This document shows positions 11,376-49,402 of a DNA stretch of 56,413 bases, one piece after another (position 1 is the first letter of the stretch; each line of letters opens with the position of its first letter). A program made the position numbers and the translations under genes. Origin of the DNA: Pseudomonadales bacterium (GTDB taxonomy: Bacteria; Pseudomonadota; Gammaproteobacteria; Pseudomonadales; Azotimanducaceae). The notes beneath the pieces are model-generated. The model saw nothing but the letters and a program-made list of their open reading frames with translations. It ran no database searches and was not told the DNA's origin. The DNA lies in assembly GCA_019090615.1 (NCBI GenBank), contig JAHRVQ010000010.1, forward strand, positions 1-56,413, in the 5' to 3' direction.

Positions 11376-11390
11376 GGTTTACGAGCTTGG

Positions 11391-24300: not shown

Positions 24301-24806
24301 CCCACCCCAACGGGCCCAGCCAGAACAGCCTTTTGACCGATTTCAATACCGTTGCTGAAAAACATAAGGTCTACCTGCCCCCGCCAACAGAAGAAGATGA
24401 TTTGCGGGCCGATTATACCAGTACTGGCCTGACCTTAGGCCGCCACCCAATGGCGATGTTAAGACAGAAAGCACCCTTTAGAAAATTAACAACGGCGACT
24501 GAACTTGAGCAGCTAAATCATGGCCGATTTGTCCAGGTTGCTGGTATCGTTACCGGCAGGCAACGGCCAGCATCAGCCACAGGGGTTTTATTCCTTACTC
24601 TCGAAGATGAAACCAACAATATTAATGTGGTTGTATGGAATCAGGTACTGGAAACATTCCGTGCCGCCGTTGTTCAGGGCCGACTACTTAAAATCAAAGG
24701 CATTATGGAACGACAACGATCAGTCATCCATGTAATTGCTGGTCATGTGGAAGACCTCAGCCAGCACCTGGAACATTTTTCATTAAAATCAAGGGACTTT
24801 CGATAA
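21360..24806 (+). CDS. dnaE2: Error-prone DNA polymerase DnaE2 (ImuC)
   Basis: 1148 residues. Family landmarks are AELHCISNFSFLRGASHPDELV at the start of the PHP domain, catalytic aspartates in DEPPDIDVDFEHERR, then ALAATVITYRPKSAVRDVGKALG, SQHVGGFIISQGPLS, VGVFQVESRAQISMLPRLKP and GFGDYGFPESHAASFA. A C-terminal OB fold carries the RQRPASATGVLFLTLEDE segment. It acts as a translesion polymerase under SOS, matching the LexA box upstream. Unusually, residues 10-35 are an extension made by a 15-bp tandem repeat (INQST/INQDR), and another duplicated insert lies near residue 175 (YSNINYSNIN). The usual partners imuA and imuB are not adjacent. Confidence 0.96.
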   Translation: MKISTKHDHFINQGTINQSTINQSTINQDRINQDSYAELHCISNFSFLRGASHPDELVKQASNLGYAAIAITDECSMAGIVKAHVAAKECQIKLIAGSEFHLDEGIHLVLLAANRIAYGQICNLITLGRRRANKGEYQLSVKDLCFGMDQCLAIWLPDRSDNLSLSHKHSHSYSNINYSNINRLSSTDNAGQDKTQTGMTLKRLFKQQLWLGIEIFPDGHEMPHYQQAFHLSEALQVNMVAMGDVHMHHPDRKALQDVLAALRMGQSVRLAGKLLFANREKYLRPVSVISQFYPASLLAESLHIADLCEFSLDELRYEYPKELVPAHMNPSEYLRLLVETGAKTRWPAGIKPAVQETIEKELQLIAELSYEYYFLTVFDVVHFARNQNILCQGRGSAANSAVCFCLQITEVDPAKASLLFERFISKERDEPPDIDVDFEHERREEVIQYIYKKYGRDRAALAATVITYRPKSAVRDVGKALGMDPQLIEQLAKSLSWWDKREQLLERFTAAGVNPRSPLIGQFMALVNEILGFPRHLSQHVGGFIISQGPLSHLVPVENAAMEKRTIIQWDKNDLEALGLLKIDVLALGMLTAIRKSLDMINQYRGYTSQSKQNKNRQLTIANIPAEDPQTYQMLQAGDSVGVFQVESRAQISMLPRLKPRCFYDLVIQVAIVRPGPIQGKMVHPYLKRRNGEEAVSYANDAIKSVLGRTLGVPIFQEQVIKLAVVAAGFTPGEADQLRRAMAAWKRKGGLEIFQQKLISGMLERGHDLEFAERIFEQIKGFGDYGFPESHAASFALLVYFSAWLKCHEPAAFYCGLLNSQPMGFYSASQLVQDARRHGVEIKPVDISTSDWESILVPPSTTCSEVEARPTEPASQNILNERKNAQKDEQRINKPTTLKPQPAIRLGFQRIKGFKQTTAQRIITIRANPTSKQQPVKDLQTFAQQAQLDRGDLQRLTEAGALRSLSGHRYQTHWETKGMLTHPNGPSQNSLLTDFNTVAEKHKVYLPPPTEEDDLRADYTSTGLTLGRHPMAMLRQKAPFRKLTTATELEQLNHGRFVQVAGIVTGRQRPASATGVLFLTLEDETNNINVVVWNQVLETFRAAVVQGRLLKIKGIMERQRSVIHVIAGHVEDLSQHLEHFSLKSRDFR
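21401..21460 (+). repeat. 15-bp tandem repeat inside the dnaE2 5' end
   Basis: CACTATAAATCAGAG at 21401 and 21416, then CACTATAAATCAGGA at 21431 and TCGTATAAACCAGGA at 21446. In frame, it encodes a TINQS-like pentapeptide repeat ahead of the PHP domain. Confidence 0.95.
21875..21904 (+). repeat. 15-bp tandem duplication inside dnaE2
   Basis: TTATAGCAACATAAA at 21875-21889 and again at 21890-21904. In frame, it creates the YSNINYSNIN insert. Confidence 0.9.
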
Positions 24807-24844
24807 ATGAGTTTTGCTACCAGGTGCCAAACTAAATAGCCGCA

Positions 24845-25519
24845 TTAAAAATCCTGAAGATTAAGTATCAACGGCCTCGAATGGTGATAAGCAATAATAG
24901 CCACCAGCGCCTGGCCCAGGTCTATATTGGCAAACTGCCAGTTGCCCAGGTGCCGGGGGTTTTTCTCATCTGCCACTAACCCCATATCCAGACTACCACT
25001 ACCAACGACAACACTAAACCGCGCAAAACCATAACGATAACCCTCACCAATGGCTTTGGTATAGGCTTCTTTTTGGCTCCAGATGCGATAGAACATAGGT
25101 TCTTGTTCAGCTGCAGGCAACGCTGCCAAAGCCGTTTGCTCCAGCACAGAAAAACTACGCGCCGCCATCGGCCGCCAATCCACTGCTTGCTCCACAAGGC
25201 TTAAATCCACGCCCACCTCAACTTGTCTGCTGACAGCAATCAACACCCAATCACCTGCATGAGATAGATTAAAATGACAGCCTGCTACTTCAGGTCGACC
25301 ATGCTCGTTGTACTGAAATACCAGACTATTTGCAGGTTTAAGTAAATAACTGGCTAATATTTGTCGCAACGCCGTGCGCGTTTTAACAAACCGGTTTTGA
25401 TCAACAGCAAAAACAAATTTGTTAGCCCGAACCAGTTCATCATCCGACAAATATTCAATGCTCAGCGGTCGATGATCTGCGATATCAACTCGCCAAAGCT
25501 CAATGGTCGCCGCATTCAT
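24845..25519 (-). CDS. pfaE: Sfp-type 4'-phosphopantetheinyl transferase, PfaE role
   Basis: 224 residues from ATG 25519; an upstream TTG at 25579 would overlap pfaC by 35 bases and add 20 residues. Sfp/AcpT motifs are clear: HFNLSHAGDWVLIAVS, the Mg-binding VGVDLSLVEQ, and RIWSQKEAYTKAIGEGYRYGF (W-x-x-KEAxxK). It transfers phosphopantetheine from CoA to the serines of carrier proteins; the natural substrates are the four ACPs of PfaA. It is the last gene of the pfa operon, and its start lies 25 bases after the pfaC stop. It converges with dnaE2. Confidence 0.93.
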   Translation of the reverse strand: MNAATIELWRVDIADHRPLSIEYLSDDELVRANKFVFAVDQNRFVKTRTALRQILASYLLKPANSLVFQYNEHGRPEVAGCHFNLSHAGDWVLIAVSRQVEVGVDLSLVEQAVDWRPMAARSFSVLEQTALAALPAAEQEPMFYRIWSQKEAYTKAIGEGYRYGFARFSVVVGSGSLDMGLVADEKNPRHLGNWQFANIDLGQALVAIIAYHHSRPLILNLQDF

Positions 25520-25544
25520 TGACACATAATGCCAGCAACCCACA

Positions 25545-28500
25545 TCATTCTCTGCTATCACCCAACAGCCGTAAGGCAATCACTTCTGCCGGATTTAATT
25601 TTTTCGCCAGCTCTGTACCCAACTCACCAACTGAACTTTTTCCATCCAGCCTGGCATCGGAAAGTCCTAACTTAGCTAATAAAAGTTCCATTTTATCCCC
25701 AACGACTGGTAACGCCTGAACAGCAGACAAAATGGCTTTTTGCACATTAGAACGCTGATCTGCCTGACTAGCCACCTTAGCGGCGAAAACAGCGTCTGCT
25801 GGTAACGGCAGATCGGCCAAACCATCAGGGCCAAGATTATTAATGCCATCCAGAATTATTTGACTACGCGCCTTATAATTTAACCCAGCCAGTACCTGAG
25901 GTGTTATCGCCGCGCCAATATAATGATCCTGTTGGCCAAAACCTACTGGAAAATCAAATTTTTCATAACCAGCTGAGCGTTTATTTGGCTGACTCGGCAG
26001 ACCACCAGAAAAACGTACTGGGACGATAGGCAATCCACAATCAATGGCCAGGTCGGCAAATACTGAGCTGACTTTTTCTGTCTGCTGTCCGCCCTGTATG
26101 GCCCTGGTACCTTCAACATGGACCAACAACGAATGTGGCTTTGTAGCCACTGTTTGACGAAATTCCTTTAATATCTGCAATAGATGTTGTGGGTTTTCGC
26201 GATCAAGAAAAAGGATCTTAAGCGGACTGGCGGCACCCATTTCCACTTCTGCTAATTGATCTATGTCACCAATCCAGCCAGTTTGATGCTGTTTTTTGGC
26301 GATGGCAGAGGTCGGTATACCGGTTAAACCCACAATCGCACTCAAAAACAAAAATGACTCTGCATAGGTTTGATGGTTGGCAAGGTAGATAGCAGGTTGA
26401 TTAAGCCGTTGATTAAAACCCTGTGGATCTTCCAGTACAATATGACGCACAAACTGGCGAATAAGAGCATTACCCAGGTCAAACATCAGATGCTGCTCGC
26501 CGCTCGCTAATCCCAACCAGTATTCTTTTATCCGCTGCCAATTAATCGCTGAGGCCGTTCCAGACGCTGTTGCAGATGTTGCGTTAGCTTTAGACACATA
26601 ATTAATCTGCAACTGATTAAAAGGCAAGTTAAGACATCGCCCCTCTACATCCGTTTGCACTCTCGCGGGATGAATACGGATTATCCGCGCCGCATGTTCT
26701 GCGACCGCTACCCTTTCTAGCAATTGATCTTGCGATTTTAGCGCATCTTCTGGCGTAAAAGCGTACGCACGCTCCATACTGCCAGGCAACCAGTTACTTG
26801 CCGCTATAGCGCTCGCTTGAAGCGTGGTTTGCTGACCATCAAAACCGCCCAGGCCCGCACCTTCAATATATCGTTCTCCGACTAGAAATTGTCGTCGTGA
26901 ATGCGCCGGCAAGCTACCAATCGGACCTTTTGGCATCAACACTTCAGTGATTATAAATTCTGCAAATTGCTTATCATCCTGCAACAGCCAAAGCTGCGTT
27001 CGAGCTAATCGTCCACCTGATAAGGCAATATATCGTGCTTCAACCCGCACCAAACCGGTCTCAGGAACAGGCCGAAAAAACTTCAATGATTCGATTTTCA
27101 AAGGATATGCTGCATGCTCAGGTGAAATAGCCTCATCCCATAATTGCATTTGATCATGGGGCATACAATGCAACGCAGCATCTAACAGACCAGGATTGAT
27201 GCATCCTGTTGGCACATGATTATTAGCCAGGTCGAGCACTGCACTGGCACCATTGGTGCCCAATTGCAGCTCAATCATCAACTGAAAGGCCGGCCCATGA
27301 AACAGGCGCCCAGACTGATAAAATCCCGTCACAGGTTTTGCATCCCGCAGTGGCTGGATTTCAGCCAATTGCGGCGCACTATAAGTATCGGCCAGATGAA
27401 AACGCGCATTGCCGATCAGAGATTCAATGCGATCAGCGTTTTCTTTATCAACTGAGACAGCGTCCGCTATGACAGTATCACTACGATACAACTGCACATC
27501 AAAAATATTATCATCCTGCGCTTGCACTGAGCTTCTACCACGTTTAATCGGCTCATCAAATATCAGCCAGGATTTAACGCTAGCTTGCGAAATTTCCCCA
27601 AGGACCCTGTCTGGCGTAATGTCAGACGCTCGGCTTGTTACAGCTGAAGCGCCTATGACTGCCGCCGCCATCATATCCAGCTCTACCATCATAGGTAAGG
27701 CCGGTAAGGTATAGGTAGGACAATGATCAGCTATCCAGCTTGATTCATCTATATTCAGTTGCCAGGGATATCCCACCATAGCTTGCTTACTAACAACGGC
27801 ATCATTAATTGCAACAACAGCGTCAGCAACCGGTTGATGGCTGAGCTGCGCAGAATCTGCCAGTATTTTCATTCCAATTCGGGGCGCAGAATATATTTTC
27901 AAGCCATCAGCCCACAATCGAGCCTCACCGATCACCCAACAACCTGTTTCATCCGCGGCTACTTCGGTACACTCAAAATCAACCCGTATAAGACTTTTCT
28001 CTGGTGTCACCTGACCCCGATAATGCCATTCAGCTTCTTCACCAATGATTATCGGCTCAAACCTTGGATGCTCGAAACCCTGCTGCATATTTTGACTTAA
28101 CATAAATGCCTGGATCAATTGCAACATGGCTTCAATACCCAACGAACCCGGTTGAACTGGATCCTGAAAGAAATGGGCTTTAAAGAACCATTCGTCTATT
28201 GCAACGTCCTTTTCTCCCAGGATACGCCCCAGGCCCTTTTCGCCTGCTGTTGCATCCAAAAAGTTTATCCGATCCAGCATTAATAATTTGGAATCAGGTA
28301 GATGCAGGCTGGGATGAGAAAAATATTCGGCTGGGCGCTGTACAAGGTCAATCTGAATATTCGCCGGTGCATCAAAGATCAGTCGTTCTTTGTCATTAAT
28401 AGCCAGACCCTTCTGGGCTTTCATAGCGTCGGGCGGGAAAAAGCCAAATACGGTTTCTACGGTATAAACTTCTTCGCCATCAATACTACAAACAACCTTG

Positions 28501-31500
28501 AAATTTTCTATTATCAGTTCGCCGATCTGGGACACTGAAGTTAAAGAGGCCACAGTTTTAAGCGTTGTATCACCAGGCACGATTTCTCGATGCTGCACAG
28601 CAGTGCCATCAAGATTACGAAATAACAGATCACTATCAGCATAATCCCGTGCCAACGTATAAGACGCCAGCCAGCCACAAGGTTGAAGCGCAATTTCCAA
28701 CAGCACACAGTTAGGCATAGTAGAGGAGCTATTTTCACGGAAATACCAGGCGTCAGGTTCAATATCGTATAGGACCTCAACCCTGCCGCCCGCTTTCATA
28801 CTGGCCATTTCACCTTCTAACAAGACTATCCTGGTCATAAAATGATACGGCGGACCTGGCAAGCGCGGGCTTCTTAAAGGCCCATCATAATGGGCAAAAC
28901 CCTCACCAAATGCCAATGAAGGTTTACCCCATGCACAGTTTAATAAAGATGCATAGTCCAGCGGAAAATCATCTATATATGCGAGTGGCCGATTATCATC
29001 AACCACATCCAATAACTCTGGCATGCTGGACAGAGGCCAGTCAGGCACGAGTTCCAAACCAAGACTCTCACATAAAAAAGCCTTCCGTCCATCAACCGAA
29101 CACAACACATGAGCGAATATTTTCGGCTGCTGATCAACAAACTCTGCGTCTATAAACACCTCATAGACCAGTTGTTGGGAACTGGGTAACGCCTGACCAC
29201 GACAGACAAACTGATATGCAATATCTTTCACTGGCTGAAACCGCCAACCATCCCGTTGCAAACTATAACCTCGCGCACTCATATAAAATGCCATCGCCTG
29301 TAAACAGGCATCCGCCATTAACGTACCCGGCATACAGGGGTCATTTTTAAAGTGACCGGAAAAAAACCAGTCGGCCTCGCTAAGATCCTTAACAATCCGC
29401 AAATAGCCTCTTCCCTCAGGCCCCCCTTGCGGTTCAAAATGCGTCACTTCACCTAGAAAATTACCTTGTTCAGAGGGTGAAACTGGCGTTCGGGTATGGG
29501 TCTGGGCGAGATTAAATTCTGATCCAAAACAAAGCTGCAAATCACCTTTAAGATACGCGGCAATATCGTTTTGACTAAAGCTGGTTTTATTACATAAGGC
29601 TACTGGCGCAACCGCTTCAAAGCCTGGTCGATAACTAGCCTCTGCAGGATCCCATAATACTCCTGCTGAATCGGCTAATTCTGCGGGGGTAAAAAATCCA
29701 GCCTGACCATTGCGAACTGATATGCAGGTTTTACCATTACGCATACAATCGTAATGAAAGAAAAATAGTCGTACATCACCCTGCTGAGCATGGCCGTCGA
29801 CTTTAATTTCATAACCCAGCGTATCACCTGGCTCCGGTAAATCTTCATGAAAAACCAGCTCACAGCCTAACAGGCGATACGCCCGCTCCCCCTGATTATG
29901 AAAATCTATACCTAACCAGGAAATAAGCAGTAAATCGGCCTGGCCGCATTCAATAAAAATACCTGGTGGCATGCGGCCCTGATGTAAATACCAGCTATCT
30001 TTTGCCACATCAGTTTCAGTCCATATGGTGCCTTTACCCATAGAACCCGCTTCGCCCTCGATGCCTAAAACGCGATCACAGAGTAACAATGGCGGCTCCG
30101 GCATACGCACCTGGATATCATATTGATCCTGACATTCAAACAACTCGCCGAAGATAGAAGATATTTTACCGCCAGCCAACACTTCTAATTGCTGACGAGT
30201 AAATGCAGGCCCAGGATATGTAGGCGCTACGATATCAATTTCCGCCTCTGCGGCGACTGCTTTTAAAACAGTAGCTGTGACTGGCTTTTTTGCCAGCGAT
30301 TTAAACAATTGATCGGTTTTATTCGGCTGTGGCACCTGATTAGGCTGTGGCACCTGATTAGGCTGTGGCACCTGCCTCACAACAGGCACGGGTTCAGTCA
30401 GCGGCTGACCAGCGGTCAGTTGTACGCTGGCTGTTTCAGCACCAGCAAATAGATGTGTCTGAATGCGCTGCATAGATTCTGCATAGGCCTGTTGCGCCTG
30501 TTGCTGGGCAGTAAGAAAGGCCTGATGGCCTTCCAGCATTTTTTGATGGCCTGATAACAATAATTGATATTGTGCAGGCAAACCGGAATTAACTTTGGGT
30601 TGTTCAGTCGTTACTTTATTTACCACAGCATTTACAGCAAGGTTCTTTGCGAGCACTGGATTTTCAAGCACTGGGTTTTCAAGCAACGGGTTTTCAAGCA
30701 CTGGTTCTTTTTGCCGAGTAGTCAATGGCGTCTGTCGCTCTGGATGCTTTAATTCAACTGCCAGGGCAGGACGCTCGACTACCTTAGCTACTGCCAATGT
30801 TTCTATTGGCTGCTCTGATAAGCCTGAAGCTATCGATGAATCCACAACCAATGGCTCCAAAGGTTGTGCATTGGTATATGCCAGAAGTGGCGCTGCGGGC
30901 ATTAACAAACCCTGTTCAGGGCCAACAGCACTCACTGGTGGGCGATAACATGGGGCATCATTTAGCAAAGACATTCTATTCACCACAGCATCACTTTTCG
31001 ATGTTTGTTTCGCAGCAACTGGCGGCAGCCTTAATGCAAAAGACAATTTCTTTTCATTGGCTTCTATTGCTGGGTTTTTATTAGGCCCAGACTGTTCATC
31101 CGGCTCAGGCTGTTTATTAAGCTCAAGCTGGGACAGATCAATATCCACACCGGCACACCAGAGGCTTGCTGCAGCTCGATAAAGCTGGGTAACAGAGGGC
31201 ACAGCGGGATGATCCAGCGAAACAACCAGATGCTCTTTATCACCCAGGATATCGCTAATGGACGCCGACAGACTATTACGCGGTCCATGTTCTACAAAAA
31301 TTCTTACCCCTTCCTGCCAGGCCAAATTAACAATATGCGGAAAATCAACAGTTTGGAGGGCTTGACCTGTCAATGCCTCGGCAACTGATGTATCTGTTAG
31401 CTGATAGACACCGCCCAAATAGTTAGAATAAAAACGAATATTATCAGGTGCGACAGTTTCTCGGGTATGCAAACTCCGCCAGCTGGACTCGAAAGGTTTT

Positions 31501-34500
31501 ACCACTTCGCAGTGAACTGCCAGATCATGTCCCAACGGAATGACCTCCGGTTTCCCGAGTTTTGCAAGCACTGCCTCACAGGCACTGGGTTTACCCCCAA
31601 TAACCAGATCACCGTTAGATTGAATAATAGTTATATAGGCAAATTTCTGTTCCGCAACGGCAGCCTTAACTGCTTCAACCGGCGCCAATATACGCAAATT
31701 TACCCAATCAACAATTTCTCCCGCTGCAAGCCCCCATGCTTCCCGCACTGAAGTAAATTCTTCTGCCAGCGCAGACTGATACAGGTTTGATCCAGCTATA
31801 TCTTCGAGTAATGAATCCATATTTTGCCAGGCACCAAAAGCAAACATTGCATTGGTTTCTCCTGAAGATAAGCCAATGGCATCGGTAGCCGTTAATCCCA
31901 ACAGTTTACTACTGAGTTGATAATGCAATTGACATAAATAAGAGCAACCCGCGAGCTGAAAGTAAGGCAGCCTATGTCGATCATCGGCAGGATTAAAGGC
32001 AACTTGCATCGCTGCGGCGGCCTTTGGCATTTGACTAGCCAGGGCAGCTGCTTGCAGCGGAAAACCAAAAAACAAGTCACGCCCCATGCCGGGATAGGCA
32101 GCTGCAGCACCTGTAAATACCGCCGCTATTCGTGGTTGTTGGTTAGCCTTATCAATTTTGATACATAAAGAGCTTTCGGAAAAGCTGATTCCATCCAGTG
32201 ACCAAGACTTTAATTCTGGTTTTGCCAGCAGCCATTCAATGGCACGCTGTCGCAATTTATCTAAACCCTGGCCATTTCCCACCAGCGCAACACGACAATT
32301 ACCGTTAGTAGACCTAATGCCTGCTTTTAATGCTTTAACTAAAAGCGACCTGGTCTCGGCCGCGTAAGTGTTTATATGTGGCTTATCTGTAACCGCAAAA
32401 GCCTTTTGCCCACCCAATCCAGGCATCAAACGCCATGCTTGTTGCTCGCCAAAAATTGATCTGTTATGAATTAACGTTGATTCAGGCTTGATGCCTCTTG
32501 CTGCAGTTTCACCGGGTCTAAGACCTGCACGCAGCTGTTGAATGCCTGCCGCCAGGTTATATAAACCCGCAGCCGCATGGGCTGCGGTAAATTCTGTAGG
32601 TGGCCTGTTAAATTCCGCGACACCAACTAACGGCTCCAATGATGGCTCTTCTGATGATGGCTCTTCAGATGATAGCTGGGCATTGATTTCTGCTTCATCT
32701 ACCTCAACTGCCACTACCTGAGCTAGTATCTGATCACCATCCTGCTTAGCCTGCGCGACAGATTTAACTGCCAGCAACACCGCAGCATCCTGAACCACAG
32801 TTGTTGAAACAATATTAGAATGCTTCGATTCAGGTGTTACAATTTCACCACGGACAGTTGAAATTGCTGTTTGATGGACAGGTTCAGCCGACAAATCTAC
32901 AGCGCCAACCAGGGCTACATCTATCTCATTATTCTGAATCGCGGTAATTGCAAGTTCCAGTGCACCATCACCTGATAACTCTTCTCTTGATACAGCAAAT
33001 CCAGGGCCGGTAATATTAAGCAGCAAGTTTAGCCGATTTGCGGGTATATTTGGCATCTTGCCTAAAACGCCCGCAGCGGTTAACGGCGGCAGTGTCGTTT
33101 CATCAATATCAAGTCCCAATTCCGACGCCCGCCAACGTAGACCGTAGCGACATACTTCAGCATCCGTCTGCATGCCAATATAAATACCACACCGATCTTT
33201 ATCGATGCCGTCCAGAGCAGATTGCACCTCAGGTAATAGTTCCAGTAATACCAATTGCTGGCCTAAGGCTTCTTTTAGATCATTTGGCGGAAATACTAAC
33301 CCCGAGGTAGAAATTGACACTGCATTTTTTGAGGTTTTTTCCTGCGCCAAAGGCACTGCTGGTGAAGGTGATAATGCACAAATGCGCTCAGCAAATTGAT
33401 CCGCCGTATTATCCCTGTCTGTCTTCACTGCTAGCGCCACAATCGCCACCGGCACTTTATTTTGCGTCCCTGGAGTCGCTTCCAACAATAAGTCTTCGTA
33501 CTCTTGCTGAACGATTAAATGCGCGTTATTACCACCAAAACCAAAACTGCTGACCGCCGCCGTTCTTGGACCATCACTATGCCAGGGCCGACTATTTTCA
33601 GGCACTTCAAAACCGTTAGTTGTCACTGCTGCAATAGTAGGATGGGCATTTGCCGTAGCAGGAATCGTCTCATGCTCAAAAGCCAACAACATTTTTAACA
33701 GGCCTGCAACGCCAGACGCCGTAATGAGGTGCCCTAAATTGCCTTTGAGCGAACCAATCGGCAAATTTTTACTGGTATCAAACACCTCAGCCATACTCTT
33801 AAGCTCAATACCATCACCTGTTTCCGTGCCCGTAGCATGACATTCAACATATTGTACTGATGCAGGGGTCATAGCGGCCATACGGTAAGCATTTTTCATA
33901 CAGGTTATCTGCCCAGCAGCAGAAGGCGATAAAAAACCGCCGCTACGACCATCATTCGATAGACCAACACCTCGAATAACACCATATATTTGATCACCGT
34001 CATTCCGAGCATCTGCCAGTCGTTTTAGCGCCACAAAGGCTGAGCCTTCAGCAGGCACCAGCCCATCCGCCTGTTCATGAAAAGGTCGGCTGATACCTTT
34101 TTGACTTAACGCATTAAGAGCGCTGAAACCCATGTGAATAAATAACGGATCAGCGGCGTTAGTCCCACCTGCCAGCATCAAATCAGCACTTCCATCCTGT
34201 AGCCGATCACAGGCTATCTTGATGGCATATAGCCCCGATGCACAGGCTGCATCAATAGCGAGGCTATTTCCCTGTAATTCCAGACCTTGCGCGACTAACA
34301 TGGCCGGTAAGCCAGACATAAAGCGATTATCGGCTGCAACATTAATACCGCCTGCTTTCGCTTTCCCAGACAACCCTAGCTCAGACAACCAGGTCTCCTC
34401 GGCTAGTTGGCTAAGGGCTCTGGTTGGATAAGATAAATTACCCATTACAACTCCAGCTCGATCTCGACTCGTAATACTGCTGGTTTCGGCCAGTGCCTGA

Positions 34501-34832: not shown

Positions 34833-34844
34833 AAGGCCTGCTAT

Positions 34845-37800
34845 TTAAGCTTGTGAATACTTTCCGTTGAAGGCATGTATATTCACATCTTCCATCGTGG
34901 CAATAATTTGTTTTTCAACATTGGTGAATACGATTGACCAGGTAGCAGCAAGTTCGGTTGCCTTTTGCAACATCAATTCACACACTACGGGCCCTTCTGC
35001 CTGTTCTTCTCGATGCCAGCGCAATCGTCCCAACCGGGTCGGCAGCGACGCAAGCCCTGAGCGATTCCTTTCCCATAAAAGCGCCAATTGTAAACCGCCA
35101 TCAAGCAAGGCCACACGCCATCTTTCAAGGTCTGATTCATTGGGCATTTGTAACATGCCACTACAACCATCAGGAGAAATCCCAACTAATTTTTTCACTA
35201 CCTGTAAAGCTTCCCCGTGAAACAGAAAGTCTTTATATATTTTTTCCGGGCCCCATTCCCAGCGTGACATTTGACTATCTGCTGATCTCTCAGGGGCGAT
35301 ATACTCTTCTGTCAGAGCATTCTTTGACACATCAATAGTCAATTGATAATGGGGCACGGCATTTTCACCAAACAACTTAAATTGCATAAGGTCTGACGCT
35401 TCGTCAAAACTCCAGTTCACATCCAGCCAATCACCTTCAGTTTCATAGGTATTTAGCTGGATACCCTTCAGTACATTAAGATCTCTGACGCCAACAACAT
35501 TCCCCTGTGGATTGAGTGCAGCTGCAATAGCCAAACACCATTCATTCACCATTACCAGCGGTACAACAGGTCTACCCTGGATAAGATGGCTGGCAATTTG
35601 TGGATGATTTGAGACATGCACACGAATAGACATATTTTTATGTTCAAACAGGTTTTGAACAACCGGGCCGCCGCCATAAACAATTTCCACACACTCGCCC
35701 CGTCGGTTCTCCACCTCATCGGCAAATAGACAAGCGCCATCAGGAATGGGAATCAGGTCCACCCCCTGCGATTTAAATAGTGTCGCTAGCGATGGGTCCA
35801 CCATACCGCCTGCCCAGGGACCCCAGCCAATCGATTTAGCAATAAAACCGTCACCTCGGCTTACTTGTTCTGCCTGACAGATTCTACTCAGAATCTCATT
35901 AGCCATCGCATAATCCACCTGTCCCTGGTTACCCAATCGGGCCGAAACAGACGAGAAACAAATCAAACGAGATAAGGGGTCGGTTTGTGTTGCCTTGAGT
36001 AAATTATCCAGCCCTCTCACTTTAGTATCAAAAACCCGATCAAACTGCGCATCAGTTTTTTTCTGAATTTCTTTATCCGCCAGAACCCCAGCGCCGTGAA
36101 CGATCATATTTATCGGTCCAAAGGCCTTGCGAATCTCATCCACAGAATGCTCCACGGATGCAAGCGCTGTTATATCCGTTGGCAAATATAAAACCGTAGA
36201 ACCCATTTCTTCGAGCTTTTTAATATTAGCGCGTACTTCGCGGCCATTCAGAATTGCGCCTACTGCGCTATTCAACGCCATCGGTGTAACCTGCTTTCCC
36301 GCCTGTTGATAGCTTTTGAGTAACTGCTGTTTTAGATCCGCATCCGTTAAATAACCGGCTAATTCTGCCGGCTCTGCTGTTAAGGCTGTACGCCCAAGAA
36401 TAGCCAGCTTAAGCTGCGTTCGGCCAGCTAGTTCAGCAATACAGGCACTGGTCACACCTCTCGCACCACCACTAATAACCACAACACTGCCTGGCGCCAG
36501 GTTCTGTACAGGAGCCTCAGCGCCATCATTTGCCTCAGCGTTATTAACGGGTTCAGCCAGCAAGGTAATTCTTCGCTCCCTGGTTAGACCCACTTCAAGT
36601 TCTGGCCCACCAGCAATCAATTCAGAAAACAGACTAGTCGCAATCTGCATCTCACCTAAACGCTCGGTATCGATATCAATCGCTTTGACAGAAACCTCTG
36701 GCCATTCTTTGGCAGCTGTTTTAGAGAGTGCGGCAATACCCGTCGCATAACATAACTGAACAGACTTGCCTGACAACCCAAAGTCACCATGAGTTGCCTG
36801 TACCGTTACAAAAAGTTTACCGTTGCTAGCCATTTCGGCTGCGCAGGCTCGGCTCTGTGCAAAGGCCTCTTTATTCAATTCGATAAGCTCATCAACACTT
36901 GAGTCAGCAGAAATATTCAATCCGGTTAGCAGCACCACCGAACGTGCATCGGCAGGTGCATTGGCCGTGATTTTATATTTAATACCGGCCTCTGCTAACA
37001 ACTCGCCCAGGTGCTGAGCAACCCCTGATCGATCGCCAACCAGATAAAGCGGGGCGGCATGCCGGATATCACCTAAAGCGATACCCGCAGCTGGGCAAGG
37101 TTTTGCCTTTATCTCGTAACGCATAAGGTTCGGTGCTGTTTCATCTAAGCTGGTATTCACAGGGGTTTGCGCAGCACCAGACTCACCAGCGTTTGTTGTT
37201 TCAACTGTTGCCGTGGCAAAAGTAATAATTTCAGCGAGCGTATTAAGCTCTGCAAGTGCTGCGGTATCCATCTCACCCAGATGCGGTACCTGATCCTGTA
37301 ATGCCGAGAGGATTTCCACCCGTTTAATAGAATCAATACCAAGGCCGGCTTCCAGTTCCATATCCAGGCTTAACATCTCTTTTGGGTAACCGGTTTTTTC
37401 CGCCACCACGTCTAACAGCATCTGTTCAAAATCAAGCGCTGATGTCACTGTTTGAGTACTGCCCGCCGGCACCCCAGACGCCGCCATTTGCGGCTCGGCA
37501 GCACCAGCAAAGGTAATGATTTCCCCCAGCGTATTAAGTTCTGCAAGTGCTGCAGTATCCATCTCACCCAGATGCGGTACCTGATCCTGTAATGCCGAGA
37601 GGATTTCCACCCGTTTAATGGAATCAATACCAAGGCCTGCTTCAAGCTCCATATCCAGGCTTAACATCTCTTTTGGGTAACCGGTTTTTTCCGCCACCAC
37701 GTCTAACAGCATCTGCTCAAAATCAAGCGCTGATGTCACTGTTTGAGTACTGCCCGCCTGCTCCTCAGAAGCCGTCATTTGCGGCTCGGCAGCACCAGCA

Positions 37801-40800
37801 AAAGTGATGATTTCTCCTAGCGTATTAAGCTCAGCAAGTGCTGCGGTATCCATCTCACCCAGATGCGGAACCTGATCCTGTAACGCCGAGAGGATTTCCA
37901 CCCGTTTAATGGAATCAATACCAAGGCCGGCTTCAAGCTCCATATCCAGGCTTAGCATTTCTTTCGGGTAACCGGTTTTCTCAGCCACCACGTCTAGCAG
38001 CATTTGTTCAAAATCAATTGTCGATGTTACCCCTTGAGCAGGGCTCGGCTGCTCCTCAGCACCGGCCATTTGTGAGCCAGCCTCACCTGCAAAGGCGATG
38101 ATCTCTCCCAGGGTATTCAGTTCCGCTAACGCGGCTGTATCCAGTTCGCCCAACTGGGGCACCTGATCCTGAAGCGCAGAAAGTATTTCAACCCGTTTAA
38201 TCGAATCAATACCCAGCCCTGCTTCCAGTTCCATATCCAGACTCAACATTTCCTCTGGATACCCTGTTTTCTCTGCCACTATTGCCAATAGTAACGCTGC
38301 AAAATCAATATTTGACGCAACCGCTGGAGGCTGATTCGGCACTACACTCTGTGAATTAGAATCCACGTTAGCAGCAACGATTGGCTGGGCTTGTGGAATA
38401 GCTTGTGGAATAGCTTGTGGAATAGTTGCCCGCATAGCGTCTGGCGCAACCACATCTTGAGATGTAGCATCAGCAACCCTGTTTGCAGCTAGAACACCGC
38501 CAGGCACGACAGCCGCCGCGGGGATAACGGGGTTGCTAGCCGTCAAAGGCGAAATAGCGGCGATGCCTCCCAATTGTGCAAATGCGACTTCACTGGCCTG
38601 TAAAAAAGCCTTGTGGGCGTCACCTAAAGTATCCTGGAAAGACTTTTGTGCTGCCAGTGTATGTTCTTGCAAACTCTGAAATGCTGCCACCCATTCGGCA
38701 TTTAACGCAGGTTGCTGATCCGCTAACGAAGTAGCTGGCTGAACGGACTGCTGAATCGGTTGTACCGGTGACTGTACATCTACCTGAGATATCTTGCTTG
38801 CTGCCAAATCTGGGGCTGACGCTACCTGCGCTGGATTAACCAGTGGATTGAGTGACGCCGGCACTGCCGCTGGGTTCGCCGAAGTAGTTGGGTTTGCCGA
38901 AGCCGTTGGGTTTGCCGGAGTAGTTGGACTCTCCGGATTAGGTGCAGACAAACCAGCCGCGCCGTTCACCGGAGGGTATGGCTTACCATGGTTAGTGCCA
39001 TTTAATTTCACCGTCACTGGCGAGCGTTTAATAGACGCGGGATGCGGCTCAAGCGCAACAAAATCCTGCCAAAGCGCGGCAAAATCAAGCGCGATACCAG
39101 TGGCAGACAGGTCGCCAAGTGCATTCCAGAATGCTGCGCGACCATCAAGTTTTTTACTATCCATAGCAATGACTTTAATATCTTTACCTTGCAGACAGTC
39201 GCGCACCATGCCGGTTAACAGGGCGCCAGGGCCAACTTCGAGAAACACTCGGATACCGTCGCTGTACATTTGCTGTACCATTTCTTCAAATCGCACCGGA
39301 TTGGCCAATTGCCACGCTAATTGCCGCTGAATATCAGCAGGCGCTAGCGGATATTCAGCGGCGCTAGTATTCGCATAAACGGGTAGCTGTGGTTGTTGCA
39401 GTGAAAAGTCCTGCAAAAATTCAAAAAATGGCTCGGCACCAGGACTTACAATATCCGTATGGAAAGCCGTCGCCACTGGTAAACGGCGATAAGTCTCGCC
39501 AGCCGCAGCCAATAACTTTTCAGCCTTTTCTATTTCTCCAGTCTCGCCAGCGATCACAACCTGACCAGGACCATTAATATTCGCCACGGTAACGGCACAA
39601 TCCCATTCATCCAGATAGGCCTGCATAGACGCATTATTGGCTCTTACTGCGGTCATGGAACCCGATGTGGCAGCGGCGGCTTCAGCCATTAATTCACCAC
39701 GGCGTCGAGCAATAGAAAGCAGACCTTCGGCTGAATCAATCACACCAGCCGCATACAATGCGGTCACTTCACCAAAACTATGCCCGCCGACGGCATCAGC
39801 TTTTAAATCCAGCGTCGCCAATAAATTCAACATTGACAGGCTGGTACAACCAATTGCCGGCTGGGCCCAGTCTGTGCGGGTTAATAACGATTCCTGCTGC
39901 GCCAGGTCAGTATCAGTAAAAACCGGAACAGGAAATACAACCTGATCCAATCTTTGTTCAGTACTCAAATTAATGCCACTTGCTCGGTCCCAGGCATGCC
40001 GCGCCTGATCAAATTCGCAAGCAAGTTCAGAGCCCATATTCACATATTGACTACCTTGACCGGGGAATAAAAAGGCTGTTTTTTGTGCCGCTTTACCCGT
40101 ACCAAAATGAATCAATTGCGGTACTGAGAATGCCTTTTCAGGCTCGGACTGTATTTTTTTCAATGCCTGAGCCACCTGAGCAGCAGCGGCATCTTTATCC
40201 TTGGCCATGATCGCCAGGCGATAATTACTGGCAGCGCTAAAAGCTAACTGTAAGCGTCTGGCCAATGTGGCTAAAACTGTCTGATCAAGCTCTGCCACTG
40301 CCGCCTGAGTGATTTCTACTAGCGCATCCACTGAGTCTGCAGCAAAGAGTAACAGTTCCACCGGCGAGCTATGATAACGGTCTGAACTACCCGTTGACGG
40401 TATATGTTCTTCCAGTGCCACATGAAAATTGCTACCGCCAAAACCAAAAGAGCTCACAGAACCTTTGCGGGTATTGCCTGGCGCTTTGATCCACGGTCTG
40501 GAGTGGGTGTTCAGGTAAAAAGGACTTTGGTCAATTTTCAAGTCTGGGTTGGGTGCTTTAACCTTAATGGTGCCAGGCAATACTTTATGATGCAGCGCCA
40601 TAACAACTTTAAACAACGATGCTGCACCAGCTGCCGATTTAGTATGCCCAATCTGCGATTTCACACTGCCGAGAGCGCACCATTGGCCTTTATCTTCGGC
40701 AGCATCTTCAAAGGCATAACACAGACCGGCAAACTCAGCGGCATCACCCGCTTTGGTGGCGGTACCATGCGCCTCGATAAGCTCGACATCTGTAACAGAA

Positions 40801-41804
40801 TAATCAGTTTTATCATAAGCCCGTCTAATGGCAAGGGCCTGGCCTTTTGATTCTGGCGCATAAATACTCCCTGAGCGACCATCGGACGAGGAACCAATGC
40901 CACGAATAACCGAATAAACGCGGTCGCCATCACGGAGCGCATCATCAAGCCGGCGCAAGGCCACCATACCAATGCCTTCGCCCAACATGGTGCCATCAGC
41001 CTCGCTGGAAAACGGGCGACAATCACCCGTCGGGGATAACGCCGGCGTTTGGCTAAAACACATATACATAAAAGGGTCATTCAAAGCATCCACACCACCG
41101 CTGATCACCAGGTCACTGGTACCCGCCTGAAGCTCCTGAATGGCCATCGCAACCGCACCCAAACTACTTGCACAGGCTGCATCCACGACGCAGTTGGTGC
41201 CGCCTAAATCGAGACGATTGGCAATTCGACCGGCGACGACGTTACCCAGTAGGCCAGGAAATGTGCTTTCGTCCCATTCCGCATAAGTGGCTTCAATTCC
41301 ATCGCAGACCTGACGTACTTTACTCTCCGCAATGCCGGCATTTCTCAGGGCCTCAACCCAATGCGGACGTTGTATCCTTGAAACCATCTGACCGACCATT
41401 TCAGTGGCCGAGGCAACCCCTAAAATGACGCTAATATCGCTTTTATTCACCTTGCCAAATTGCACACTGGCAGCATCCTGCAACACTTTATTGGCCACAA
41501 TCAAGGCTAGAAGCTGCGCCGTATCGGTGGTTGATAATTGTTTTGGCGGCATGCCAAATTCCATCGGATCGAAATCGATGTTAGGAATAAAAGCGCCTCG
41601 ATCCGCATATATTTTGCCTTTTTTACCCGGCTCAGCGTCATAAAAATCTTCAATCAACCAGTGATCGGCAGGCACTTGCTGCATAAAATCTTCGCCAGCA
41701 AGAATATTGCGCCAGAAAGATTGACCATCCAGTGAGCCCGGAAATAATCCGCTCGCACCGACAACCGCAATTGGGCTAAAACTGGTTTCTTTTAATTTAG
41801 TCAT
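34845..41804 (-). CDS. pfaA: PUFA synthase subunit PfaA: KS-AT-ACPx4-KR-DH
   Basis: 2319 residues. KS 1-450 has active Cys211 (DAACASS), EAHGTATKAGD and VKSQIGHTKSAAG. The malonyl-CoA acyltransferase (about 550-870) has FLFPGQGSQ and Ser676 in GGHSFGE. A Pro/Ala-rich linker leads to four ACPs with phosphopantetheine serines at 1201, 1298, 1395 and 1492 in LGIDSIKR. The ketoreductase (about 1770-2000) has VISGGARGVTSA and SARLGNQGQVDYAMANE. A PKS-type dehydratase closes the chain (from about 2060) with HLIQGRPVVP, FHGEALQ and DGGLQLA. It performs condensation, loading, ketoreduction and carriage of the growing chain. A good ribosome site (CCAGGAGC) precedes ATG 41804. Together with PfaC, PfaD and the PPTase it forms the operon. 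The product chain length cannot be read from the sequence. Confidence 0.96.
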   Translation of the reverse strand: MTKLKETSFSPIAVVGASGLFPGSLDGQSFWRNILAGEDFMQQVPADHWLIEDFYDAEPGKKGKIYADRGAFIPNIDFDPMEFGMPPKQLSTTDTAQLLALIVANKVLQDAASVQFGKVNKSDISVILGVASATEMVGQMVSRIQRPHWVEALRNAGIAESKVRQVCDGIEATYAEWDESTFPGLLGNVVAGRIANRLDLGGTNCVVDAACASSLGAVAMAIQELQAGTSDLVISGGVDALNDPFMYMCFSQTPALSPTGDCRPFSSEADGTMLGEGIGMVALRRLDDALRDGDRVYSVIRGIGSSSDGRSGSIYAPESKGQALAIRRAYDKTDYSVTDVELIEAHGTATKAGDAAEFAGLCYAFEDAAEDKGQWCALGSVKSQIGHTKSAAGAASLFKVVMALHHKVLPGTIKVKAPNPDLKIDQSPFYLNTHSRPWIKAPGNTRKGSVSSFGFGGSNFHVALEEHIPSTGSSDRYHSSPVELLLFAADSVDALVEITQAAVAELDQTVLATLARRLQLAFSAASNYRLAIMAKDKDAAAAQVAQALKKIQSEPEKAFSVPQLIHFGTGKAAQKTAFLFPGQGSQYVNMGSELACEFDQARHAWDRASGINLSTEQRLDQVVFPVPVFTDTDLAQQESLLTRTDWAQPAIGCTSLSMLNLLATLDLKADAVGGHSFGEVTALYAAGVIDSAEGLLSIARRRGELMAEAAAATSGSMTAVRANNASMQAYLDEWDCAVTVANINGPGQVVIAGETGEIEKAEKLLAAAGETYRRLPVATAFHTDIVSPGAEPFFEFLQDFSLQQPQLPVYANTSAAEYPLAPADIQRQLAWQLANPVRFEEMVQQMYSDGIRVFLEVGPGALLTGMVRDCLQGKDIKVIAMDSKKLDGRAAFWNALGDLSATGIALDFAALWQDFVALEPHPASIKRSPVTVKLNGTNHGKPYPPVNGAAGLSAPNPESPTTPANPTASANPTTSANPAAVPASLNPLVNPAQVASAPDLAASKISQVDVQSPVQPIQQSVQPATSLADQQPALNAEWVAAFQSLQEHTLAAQKSFQDTLGDAHKAFLQASEVAFAQLGGIAAISPLTASNPVIPAAAVVPGGVLAANRVADATSQDVVAPDAMRATIPQAIPQAIPQAQPIVAANVDSNSQSVVPNQPPAVASNIDFAALLLAIVAEKTGYPEEMLSLDMELEAGLGIDSIKRVEILSALQDQVPQLGELDTAALAELNTLGEIIAFAGEAGSQMAGAEEQPSPAQGVTSTIDFEQMLLDVVAEKTGYPKEMLSLDMELEAGLGIDSIKRVEILSALQDQVPHLGEMDTAALAELNTLGEIITFAGAAEPQMTASEEQAGSTQTVTSALDFEQMLLDVVAEKTGYPKEMLSLDMELEAGLGIDSIKRVEILSALQDQVPHLGEMDTAALAELNTLGEIITFAGAAEPQMAASGVPAGSTQTVTSALDFEQMLLDVVAEKTGYPKEMLSLDMELEAGLGIDSIKRVEILSALQDQVPHLGEMDTAALAELNTLAEIITFATATVETTNAGESGAAQTPVNTSLDETAPNLMRYEIKAKPCPAAGIALGDIRHAAPLYLVGDRSGVAQHLGELLAEAGIKYKITANAPADARSVVLLTGLNISADSSVDELIELNKEAFAQSRACAAEMASNGKLFVTVQATHGDFGLSGKSVQLCYATGIAALSKTAAKEWPEVSVKAIDIDTERLGEMQIATSLFSELIAGGPELEVGLTRERRITLLAEPVNNAEANDGAEAPVQNLAPGSVVVISGGARGVTSACIAELAGRTQLKLAILGRTALTAEPAELAGYLTDADLKQQLLKSYQQAGKQVTPMALNSAVGAILNGREVRANIKKLEEMGSTVLYLPTDITALASVEHSVDEIRKAFGPINMIVHGAGVLADKEIQKKTDAQFDRVFDTKVRGLDNLLKATQTDPLSRLICFSSVSARLGNQGQVDYAMANEILSRICQAEQVSRGDGFIAKSIGWGPWAGGMVDPSLATLFKSQGVDLIPIPDGACLFADEVENRRGECVEIVYGGGPVVQNLFEHKNMSIRVHVSNHPQIASHLIQGRPVVPLVMVNEWCLAIAAALNPQGNVVGVRDLNVLKGIQLNTYETEGDWLDVNWSFDEASDLMQFKLFGENAVPHYQLTIDVSKNALTEEYIAPERSADSQMSRWEWGPEKIYKDFLFHGEALQVVKKLVGISPDGCSGMLQMPNESDLERWRVALLDGGLQLALLWERNRSGLASLPTRLGRLRWHREEQAEGPVVCELMLQKATELAATWSIVFTNVEKQIIATMEDVNIHAFNGKYSQA
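37201..38290 (-). repeat. Four-fold ACP repeat in pfaA, 291-bp period
   Basis: The GAATCAAT tract of the DSIKR codons occurs at 37330, 37621, 37912 and 38203, exactly 291 bp (97 codons) apart. The three C-terminal copies are almost identical in DNA; the first is more diverged. This fits recent duplication or gene conversion. Confidence 0.95.
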
Positions 41805-41963
41805 CAGATAATGCTCCTGGCCTCTAAAAGATTCAGGTAATTAATCAGAGTATTGTTCGACTCAAATCTTAAACAGATTGAAAGTTAACTATTTCAGGCC
41901 TGCCAGGCAAAGCCTGGTAGTTTGAATGTCGCTCATCTAGGTAGCGCATCCTCCGTCAGGTCC

Positions 41964-43655
41964 CTAAGTACGTATAACTGTGGGGGTAAAATTCATTGCA
42001 TCCTGGGCCATAGCCAGGCCAAACGTTCGCAATTGATGTACGCGTGTAACCTGCGCTGCCCCTTCTAATAGATTCAGCGCAATTTGTTGCACTGTTCGCT
42101 GCTCTGGTGCTTGCAAAAAACTACCCGCTACCCAGCGATTAAAAGCGCCCATTGCTGGTCCGCACCATAGCTGATAATCGATTTGACGAGATACTTCACC
42201 ACTAATTGGCCACTGACTCGAATTACCGATATACCATCGAAATATTAATGCCATCTTATGTTTAGGGTTCTGCAGCGCACGTTCAAGCTGGGCCGGGTTT
42301 GATTGCTTAAAAAAACGTTCAGTCTGCTGCCAAATTTCATCAAGTGACTGGCGAAATATATTCTTCTCAATATTTTCTCGCTGCGCAATGGGAATATCAT
42401 CGATTGAATCATATCGCGTATAGAGATCATAAAGTTGATTACCCCTCACCGCCATCATGGTACCACGCTGTAATACCTGTACCTTGACCCCTAGTTCAAA
42501 CATATCCGCTGAAGCGGTCATAGCAACATCGGCCAATTCTGCTTTAGCAAGCAGTTCACGACCGCTGTCTGATATACCTGATTCAACCGCAGATTGATGC
42601 ACCGAGCCTAGCAACACAAACGCCGCACCCAGAGAATATGCCGCAGCGACACTGACTGGTGTCCCCAGACTACCCGCAGCACCCAGCCTGATGGGCCGAT
42701 TATATCCAAAACTAGCACTGAGTTGATCACGCAATGTCATAATCGCAGGGAACAGGGCATTTAATGGCCTGTTGTCGGTATGCCCACCAGAATCAGACTC
42801 TACTATTATATCTTCTGATAAAGGCAGTTCAGCGGCGATTTCTGCTTCTTCAGCCGTGATCAGATTATCTGCTAGTAGTTGTTGCAGGATCTTCTGCGGT
42901 GCCGGCGATAAAAAGTGTTTAGCAACTTCCTCCCGTGAAATTTTCGCAAATATGTAGTTTTTACGTATCACGGCACCATCTTCGCTTCGTTGTAGTCCAC
43001 TACAGGCGTATCGAACAATCGCCGGAGTAAGAGACATATAAGCAGAGGCTGAGACTTTACGCACCCCACAGCGCAGATACAGTGCAACGATGTCATTTTC
43101 AAGCGCTGGTTCATTGGGTGAATGAATAAGGTTACTACCCCAGGGCAAGCCTAATGGATCAAGTGCAGCAGCAATTTCTGTAATGGCGGCCTCAACCACT
43201 TTTGGCGCCAGACCCGCAGCCCCGAACATGCCCATCGCACCCATCTGACCGAGCGCGATAACTAATTTAGCAGAAGCAATACCCCGCGCCATCGCGCCGC
43301 CAACATAGGCAAAGCGTAAGCCATGGGTTTCCTGAAAACCACGATCACCAAGCCACTCTGGATAAAGGGGCGGCAATATACCTAAGAGGGGAAATGTTTG
43401 CTGGCCGGCTGATGTTTTACTGGTTGATGTTTTACCTGTTGATGTGCCATAGGATACTTCACCCCCTGTGGCCAGACCATAACGCTGTTTATCAGGATCG
43501 TATAAAAGGTGGCCAGGTTGCCGAATAGACGCATGGACGGTACCAGCGGTTAACGGCAAAAATGTAGCATCTGCGCTATTACCTACCCAGACACCTATAC
43601 TTGGAGGGACATTCATATCCGATGACTGATCAGCCAACATTGTTTTAGAGGTCAT
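41964..43655 (-). CDS. pfaD: PUFA synthase enoyl reductase PfaD
   Basis: 563 residues. It has the FMN-dependent TIM-barrel fold of the nitronate monooxygenase/enoyl reductase superfamily as used in PUFA synthases: an N-terminal segment with ATGGEVSYG, then LRFAYVGGAMARGIAS, MGMFGAAGL, NLIHSPNEPALE, the signature VESDSGGHTDNRPLNALFPAI, IRLGAAGSLGTPVSVAAAYSLGAAFVLLGSVHQS, and MFELGVKVQVLQRGTMMAVR. It reduces enoyl-ACP intermediates, removing those double bases that are not kept. It is the first gene of the operon (D-A-C-E order), 159 bp before pfaA; marine clusters usually end with pfaD, myxobacterial clusters start with it. Confidence 0.96.
   Translation of the reverse strand: MTSKTMLADQSSDMNVPPSIGVWVGNSADATFLPLTAGTVHASIRQPGHLLYDPDKQRYGLATGGEVSYGTSTGKTSTSKTSAGQQTFPLLGILPPLYPEWLGDRGFQETHGLRFAYVGGAMARGIASAKLVIALGQMGAMGMFGAAGLAPKVVEAAITEIAAALDPLGLPWGSNLIHSPNEPALENDIVALYLRCGVRKVSASAYMSLTPAIVRYACSGLQRSEDGAVIRKNYIFAKISREEVAKHFLSPAPQKILQQLLADNLITAEEAEIAAELPLSEDIIVESDSGGHTDNRPLNALFPAIMTLRDQLSASFGYNRPIRLGAAGSLGTPVSVAAAYSLGAAFVLLGSVHQSAVESGISDSGRELLAKAELADVAMTASADMFELGVKVQVLQRGTMMAVRGNQLYDLYTRYDSIDDIPIAQRENIEKNIFRQSLDEIWQQTERFFKQSNPAQLERALQNPKHKMALIFRWYIGNSSQWPISGEVSRQIDYQLWCGPAMGAFNRWVAGSFLQAPEQRTVQQIALNLLEGAAQVTRVHQLRTFGLAMAQDAMNFTPTVIRT
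43420..43446 (-). repeat. 15-bp tandem duplication inside pfaD
   Basis: GTTTTACTGGTTGAT is followed by GTTTTACCTGTTGAT, in frame near the N-terminus, giving the STSKTS-rich loop (GKTSTSKTSAG). Confidence 0.85.
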
Positions 43656-43748
43656 TATTTCGTTTTATTCCGCAAGTTCAAGTCACCACACTGATAAAAA
43701 TTCATTTAGCGCGGAAAATAACATCTTGTACTCACGCATTAAAGCGGA

Positions 43749-43754
43749 ATTATA
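43749..43754 (-). promoter_or_regulatory. Candidate -10 element for the pfa operon
   Basis: Minus-strand TATAAT inside TTATATAATTCC. No convincing -35 at 16-18 bases, so this rests on the hexamer and position only. Confidence 0.4.
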
Positions 43755-43899
43755 TAAGAAACAACGCAACAAACCCATTTTTACATAAAGCGGATTTGTA
43801 CAGCCTTTTTTTCAGGTAATGGGCACGATTTAATATTAAATTTATTTGATCCAGTGCAGCACTGCTGAATGGCCGATTTACATCGGCTATTTACATTGC

Positions 43900-43951
43900 G
43901 CATTTAAATCGTGCATTTAAATCGTGCATTTAAATCGTGCATTTAAATCGT
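43900..43951. repeat. Four 13-bp repeats, each with an ATTTAAAT palindrome
   Basis: GCATTTAAATCGT repeats four times; ATTTAAAT cores start at 43902, 43915, 43928 and 43941. Lies about 245-295 bp upstream of pfaD and just downstream of gspM. Confidence 0.9.
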
Positions 43952-43999
43952 AAGGGCGCCTATATCGTAGGCACGTTTAATCAACCCGACCCTATGACT

Positions 44000-49294: not shown

Positions 49295-49370
49295 ATTTGA
49301 CTTACCTGAAAATTGATCCATTAAAAGCGCCCGTTAGCTATCGCCACTAGTATACCTGAGTTCTACTATA

Positions 49371-49402
49371 TCCCAGCATCCCAGCATCCCAGCATCCCAG
49401 CA
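49371..49402. repeat. 8-bp tandem repeat, four copies
   Basis: TCCCAGCA repeated four times in the 150-bp gap between gspG and gspF. Confidence 0.92.

Follow-up and report, generated by a model that had tools for sequence, protein, structure and literature searches.

In this work we analysed a stretch of 56,413 nucleotides (referred to here as the window) from a Pseudomonadales bacterium of the family Azotimanducaceae (assembly GCA_019090615.1, contig JAHRVQ010000010.1), and in particular the four-gene locus at positions 24845–43655. The window is an entire contig (C6) of a genome of 4.88 Mb in 92 contigs. The locus probably encodes a complete polyunsaturated fatty acid (PUFA) synthase of Type L, with the layout of the Minicystis rosea synthase, and the cluster appears to be a laterally mobile unit, inserted between dnaE and gspM, whose distinct lineage is mostly gammaproteobacterial. 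Papers are cited by their PMC numbers.

Gene and domain organization of the locus

The four genes form a compact operon on the minus strand, transcribed in the order pfaD, pfaA (pfa2), pfa3 and a phosphopantetheinyl transferase (PPTase) gene. They are found where an earlier interpretation made from the letters alone (the sequence-only reading) had placed them, and the family profiles agree with its description of a four-gene locus with two acyltransferases fused into Pfa3; the family matches of all four are far above chance. The first gene, pfaD or pfa1 (41964..43655), encodes a trans enoyl reductase (ER) of 563 amino acids (TIGR02814, 614 bits against a cut-off of 449), and a profile search of the genome reached this cut-off nowhere else. 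It is followed after 159 bases by pfaA (34845..41804; 2319 amino acids; TIGR02813, 1532 bits against 1010, and domain models), and after a further 12 bases by pfa3 (25545..34832; 3095 amino acids), a pfaB–pfaC fusion with an added acyltransferase, identified by family profiles and domain models. For the pfaE-like PPTase gene (24845..25579; PF01648, 47.5 bits against 25), the ATG at 25519, 25 bases past pfa3, is a more probable start than the listed TTG at 25579. A scan of the sequence for promoters and terminators yielded no more than shuffled sequence.

Catalytic residues were read directly from the sequence, with the acyltransferase (AT) motifs defined in PMC12895367, and domains were delimited with hidden Markov models (HMMs) built from the window itself and tested on the independent, published M. 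rosea locus. PfaA has the order KS-MAT-ACP4-KR-DH1. Its ketosynthase (KS; 40410..41774) has the active site DAACA, its malonyl transferase (MAT; 39153..40082) reads GHSFG, and four tandem acyl carrier protein (ACP) domains (37218..38306), with a repeat unit of 291 bp, all carry GIDSI; these three are supported by motif and domain HMM, and the ketoreductase (KR; 35787..36491) by its domain HMM. The protein ends with a dehydratase (DH) of the polyketide synthase (PKS) type, DH1 (34920..35627), recognized by our own HMM, Pfam PF21089 remaining under its cut-off. Pfa3 is composed of KS-CLF-AT-DH'-DH2-DH'-DH3-DH4-AGPAT and a tail of 146 residues. Its KS (33504..34808; motif and domain HMM) again reads DAACA, while the chain-length factor (CLF; 32541..33305) was detected by its domain HMM and no DxAC motif was found in it. 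The PfaB-like AT (31161..32129), with the motif GLSSGE, Ser989 and His1107, was detected by its domain HMM and by TIGR02816, which it matches with 77 bits over residues 893–1196, under the cut-off of 144. The FabA-type block DH'-DH2-DH'-DH3 (27864..30212; profiles and domain HMMs) carries His1827 in DH2 and His2220 in DH3. Between DH3 and AGPAT lies DH4 (26916..27743), a second PKS-type dehydratase above the PF14765 cut-off, with His2370 and Asp2551; its AlphaFold model (pLDDT 89.5) matches PKS dehydratases, the top match in the PDB being the CurJ DH (3kg8, E 2.6e-16). The C-terminal AGPAT/PlsC-like acyltransferase (25986..26480; PF01553, 31 bits against 23) has the motif HX4E (His2820, Glu2825) and EGTR. 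In the PPTase, motifs P1a (HGRP) and P1b (FNLSH) are present, and P0 (LRQILA) is imperfect, ending with A instead of S. The gene order and the two fusions of the sequence-only reading therefore stand, but DH1 at the end of PfaA and DH4 in Pfa3 had been missed.

Applied to the M. rosea locus (G976), which encodes a synthase of the arachidonic acid (ARA)/docosatetraenoic acid (DTA) type in pfa1-pfa2-pfa3, the same HMMs return ER, then KS-MAT-ACP3-KR-DH1, then KS-CLF-AT-DH'-DH2-DH'-DH3-DH4-AGPAT-tail. This agrees with the architecture described in PMC6731297, while the available part of PMC8436480 gives the same Pfa3 domains without DH4. Gene and domain order are identical to those of the window, AT and DH4 included, as are the catalytic motifs and the HX4E of AGPAT; the myxobacterial-like layout proposed earlier is borne out, and is exact for M. 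rosea. The two loci differ in that the M. rosea PPTase lies at a separate locus (PMC8436480), that M. rosea has three ACPs and the window four, and that the AT motif is GYSSG in M. rosea and GLSSG in the window. The residue before the Ser is described as Leu in eukaryotic PfaB and Tyr in bacterial PfaB (PMC12895367), and is Leu in the window. Expressed in Yarrowia, the M. rosea synthase yields ARA and DTA (PMC6731297).

Type L, as described in PMC3098273 (Shulse and Allen 2011), comprises secondary-lipid synthases of Sorangium, Plesiocystis, Streptomyces, Nakamurella and the gammaproteobacterium Saccharophagus degradans, with a PPTase most often nearby. The window shares with this type a pfaD in the 5'-most position, the fusion of pfaB and pfaC, and a PPTase with P1b. 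It departs from the published order, KS-CLF-DH2-AT, in having its AT after CLF and ahead of the DH block, and also in its PlsC-like C-terminal transferase (for Saccharophagus the comparison is with the published description). In the KS tree the window lies on the same side as the Sorangium and Streptomyces rows, in a tree whose deep branches are weak and which includes the Type L members of 2011 only in part. A myxobacterial layout in a gammaproteobacterium is already known and fits Type L: given S. degradans and the nearby PPTases of this type (PMC3098273), and Tahibacter among the hosts named in PMC8436480, neither the gammaproteobacterial host nor the PPTase in the operon is as unusual as had been suggested. 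The marine Type A/B clusters (pfaABCDE) have homologous KS, ACP array, KR, CLF, DH and ER, but their pfaB is separate, their pfaD is last, they lack DH4 and AGPAT, and they are distant on the DH region.

Expected product and terminal acyltransferase

In the pathway that we propose, the PPTase would arm the four ACPs and MAT would load malonyl units; KS and KS-CLF, KR, the FabA-type DH2 and DH3, the PKS-type DH1 and DH4 and the trans-acting PfaD would then carry out an iterative cycle that needs no oxygen and builds a C20–C24 acyl chain containing several cis double bonds. Synthesis may be ended, and the chain handed to a glycerolipid, by the fused AT together with the PlsC-like acyltransferase at the C-terminus.

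The number of double bonds could depend on DH4. Its His motif is kept in 57 of 58 DH4 loci (L154 differs), and His and Asp are both invariant in 42 aligned rows chosen from 56. When the M. rosea DH4 was put into the docosahexaenoic acid (DHA) synthase of Aetherobacter fasciculatus, the products shifted to n-3 docosapentaenoic acid (DPA) and DHA, a shift reversed by a His-to-Ala mutation in DH4, and swaps of DH1 altered n-3/n-6 (PMC6731297); DH4 and AGPAT jointly caused a shift to eicosapentaenoic acid (EPA) and DPA (PMC13063552). As the window DH4 keeps both catalytic residues, by analogy with this work its product is more likely to have fewer double bonds than DHA (ARA/DTA or EPA/DPA).

It is improbable, in our opinion, that this Type L-like synthase makes some other long-chain lipid (saturated, hydroxylated or with few double bonds, of C22–C30, or a hydrocarbon precursor) rather than a long-chain PUFA (LC-PUFA). 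Many Pfa homologues do make other lipids and the Type L product is given as uncharacterised in PMC3098273, and the window clade is distant from any characterised member. Nevertheless, both FabA-type dehydratases with their His, both PKS-type dehydratases, AT and PPTase are all present, DH and AT being as in the proven M. rosea synthase, and there are no linked type III PKS or non-ribosomal peptide synthetase genes among the window proteins scanned.

The C-terminal domain of Pfa3 is called AGPAT in PMC4882568 and PMC8436480, where the available text presents it as unique to myxobacterial Type L. This definition is too narrow, as relatives occur in many phyla. The motif NHQxxxE (HX4E) is found in all 65 AGPAT loci examined, including the window and M. 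rosea, and in 53 of 53 aligned rows; EGTR is present in the window and exact in 41 of the 65 loci. HX4D is the catalytic motif of the PlsC family, and among the five other PF01553 matches in this genome L254 and L255 read NHQSxxD while L256 and L257 show the HX4D pattern by eye. The modelled domain (pLDDT 89.0) has a single fold match in the PDB at E ≤0.001, human GPAT1 (8e4y, 1e-4, query TM 0.33), and one sequence-profile match, PlsC (5kym, E 4.5e-4). The invariance of HX4E across phyla, together with the activity of the M. rosea synthase, argues for a functional transferase. Among the papers listed in a literature search on acyltransferases and AGPAT none had HX4E, and no paper was found that links PUFA synthases with HX4D or NHX4D; an earlier report of the HX4E motif may still exist. 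The conservation of HX4E marks the terminal transferase as of interest.

Phylogenetic position, distribution and insertion site

Groupings in the trees were compared by AU tests, the groups being chosen partly after the trees were seen. "Marine-type" is a label given from layout and model score to seven rows, several of which have a fused or extra AT and none of which is a named Shewanella, Moritella or Photobacterium cluster. In the PfaA KS tree (56 rows), these seven, including the pfaA-B-C-D cluster G589, split off at 100/100, and the window is one of the five gammaproteobacterial loci that make up a starred clade; a weak link of this clade to Paenibacillus as its sister in one tree vanished in a later tree. 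In a quick tree of the Pfa3 DH region (91 rows), the marine-type rows are far away and the window forms a clade with G104, G082, G064, G038 and the metagenome-assembled genome (MAG) M_MetaBat.218 (support 100). This clade is joined by a Caulobacteraceae MAG at 99, with less support by a Verrucomicrobia MAG, and then, in a wider set with Algibacter, Brocadiia and another gammaproteobacterial MAG, at 100; the wider set lies outside a large, mostly myxobacterial/actinobacterial set whose own support is weak (83). A more careful tree of 38 rows recovers the clade of six at 100/100, one further Pseudomonadota row joining at 97/99. The sister locus in the Caulobacteraceae MAG (RYN_455, L052) resembles the window in its AT, DH4, AGPAT and adjoining PPTase, with 42–74% identity in whole domains, its contig ending inside KS.

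A recent transfer from a myxobacterium would account for a layout common to M. rosea and Sorangium So ce26, a strain in whose family 27 of 108 genomes, its own included, carry a relative. This origin is most unlikely for the window: KS (p 0.009) and the DH region (p 1e-40) both reject a single clade uniting the window clade with M. rosea and So ce26, the nearest relatives are gammaproteobacterial MAGs and the Caulobacteraceae MAG, and the GC content at third codon positions (GC3) is like that of the host. Transfer from a myxobacterium would better suit G031, from the same family: its DH region places it inside Myxococcota (100) and its KS next to that of a myxobacterial MAG (96/93), although a clade of window and G031 is not rejected on KS (p 0.077). 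From these trees, two lineages of such synthases seem to be present in one family. The G031 cluster, which is Type L-like (L042 / L103), has beside it a divergent PPTase of another subtype, with a 4PPT_N domain. As for an ordinary marine-type pfaABCD cluster that lost pfaB, a gammaproteobacterial host, the pfaA-B-C-D cluster G589 in the same order and a KS test that does not reject window plus marine-type rows (p 0.19) hardly lend it credibility, since that grouping is rejected on the DH region (p 0.0005), the marine-type rows of PfaA and of PfaC split off with a support of 100, and the seven marine-type PfaC loci of the tree lack AGPAT and DH4. The placement of the window KS outside marine-type PfaA thus holds in the tree but not by the KS test alone; the distinct lineage that the sequence-only reading had envisaged is upheld by the clade itself, by the DH region against the marine side and by both regions against M. 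rosea and So ce26.

The layout is widespread. A scan of named genomes with a CLF-AT-DH alignment gave 519 confirmed relatives from 587 candidate stretches, and the 80 listed include Myxococcota, Actinomycetota, Bacillota, Acidobacteriota, sulfate reducers, Planctomycetota, several Pseudomonadota and others. Among 47 loci whose KS and AGPAT share an open reading frame (ORF; four duplicates dropped, KS cut in L052 and L075), AT and DH4 are found together in 14, including the window, M. rosea and So ce26, DH4 without AT in 22, AT without DH4 in nine and neither in two. Eight of the 47, many of which end at contig ends, have a PPTase above 60 bits no more than 1.5 kb away. In Azospirillum lipoferum 4B a plasmid encodes ER, a PfaA in which no DH1 was detected, and a Pfa3 with AT, DH4 and AGPAT. 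Closer to the window, and counting its own genome each time, a strong Pfa3 relative is present in 7/150 genomes of the family (G000, G064, G104, G038, G097, G082 and G031) and a Pfa3 relative in 2/5 of the genus, while 11/369 genomes of a class-wide gammaproteobacterial sample have a PfaA above cut-off. In an order-wide sample 12/390 genomes pass E 1e-60, 11 of them with partial matches of 35–38% and only the window's own genome with a whole match. The architecture, whose presence in relatives had been taken as a point against its being distinctive, is therefore common across bacteria but patchy in the close family. In five Actinomycetota loci (L050, L083, L119, L121 and L102) it is Pfa3, not PfaA, that has DH1 at its C-terminus. 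Two loci from the same order, L191 and L193, have a PfaB-like gene of their own as well as an AT within PfaC.

The inserted segment (24807..43999) lies between the convergent stops of dnaE (24806) and gspM (44000), genes that are adjacent in the three assessable congeners, G079, G001 and G038 (G061, with gspL at a contig end and no dnaE match, was left out). The distance between the two stops is 16 bases in G079, 54 in G001 and 19.2 kb in the window, with the pfa operon in between; in G038 dnaE and gspM are neighbours, the dnaE frame being interrupted close to its end, and this genome has its own cluster, without DH4, on another contig with different neighbours. In G064 and G082, from another genus, the site holds about 9 and 14 kb with no ORF above 545 amino acids, and hence neither pfaA nor pfa3. 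The empty site and the patchy distribution support the lateral transfer suggested by the sequence-only reading, though a clade with M. rosea and So ce26 is rejected, and we infer that the insertion between dnaE and gspM came by this route.

Several observations weigh against the conclusion that the window carries a mobile Type L PUFA synthase of the M. rosea layout. Domain identity with M. rosea is moderate, at 32–68% (66% for the PfaA KS, 42% for AT, 32% for DH4 and 39% for AGPAT), and the terminal acyltransferase departs from HX4D. GC3 of the four genes (0.39–0.44) is within the range of the flanks (mean 0.437, standard deviation 0.034), and no direct repeat of at least 10 bases was found between 24700–24950 and 43500–44120. 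After insertion of DH4 alone, DHA was still one of the two major products (PMC6731297), and a long-chain lipid other than a PUFA is conceivable because Type L was published with an uncharacterised product before the myxobacterial work. A composition matching the flanks makes GC3 unusable as a sign of foreign origin; together with the lack of a direct repeat, it suggests that the source of the unit was similar in composition, or that its move or arrival is old.

Beyond the type II secretion operon, the window encodes an integron integrase (55054–56034, minus strand; TIGR02249, 406 bits against a cut-off of 265), and in the congener G001 another one (L247:562-1575, 413 bits) lies immediately ahead of dnaE, close to the empty site. 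Short tandem repeats (units of 8–15 bp, about two to six copies, the unit differing each time) occur in 10 of the 20 intergenic gaps longer than 40 bp, for example at 11389–11429, 15369–15412, 43876–43951, 47014–47053 and 49370–49402; after 20 rounds of base shuffling such repeats were found in 0.1 gap on average and in one at most. A repeat array around CATATTCCAGATATAACC (18/36 bp) occupies positions 1–549 and extends to the contig start.

DH4 in sister loci and its significance

In G064, G082 and G038, Pfa3 is KS-CLF-AT-DH-DH-AGPAT, otherwise collinear with that of the window (51–84% domain identity) but without DH4, and with a linker before AGPAT that is similar by eye. In G064 and G082 it is preceded, as in the window, by ER and PfaA, the PfaA of G038 being cut by the contig end. 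According to PMC6731297, the DHA synthase of A. fasciculatus has this Pfa3 layout. In G082 a PPTase ORF of 141 amino acids (L040:1605-2030; C-terminal ACPS part) follows pfa3 and is possibly a truncated pfaE. As DH4 is present in the window, in G104 and in the Caulobacteraceae MAG, the simplest reading, among rows chosen by hand, is that it was lost in the sister loci. Outside the window clade 13 of 15 such rows have DH4; the other two (L061 and L090), unscored in the DH4 test, stop 2–4 residues past DH3, without DH4 and AGPAT, and other loci likewise end at DH3. Groupings implying one loss or two fit equally (both p about 0.6, on the same rows).

A bolder interpretation, which we put forward tentatively and consider doubtful as a whole, is that one gammaproteobacterial family harbours an undescribed mobile PUFA synthase lineage in which clean deletion of DH4 in sister loci would switch between few and many double bonds, and in which the C-terminal transferase of Pfa3, with an invariant His-Glu in place of His-Asp, would form a separate class of terminal acyltransferases taking the chain straight from the synthase ACP.

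What sets the length of the chain and the number of its double bonds in PUFA synthases is unsettled, domain swaps having implicated DH1, DH4 and AGPAT (PMC6731297, PMC13063552), and LC-PUFA synthases from new hosts are useful for oil production. The occurrence in one family of versions with and without DH4, 51–84% alike elsewhere, offers a closer natural comparison than the two published myxobacterial synthases, and the DH4-less relative in a congener is a natural counterpart to the published DH4 experiments.

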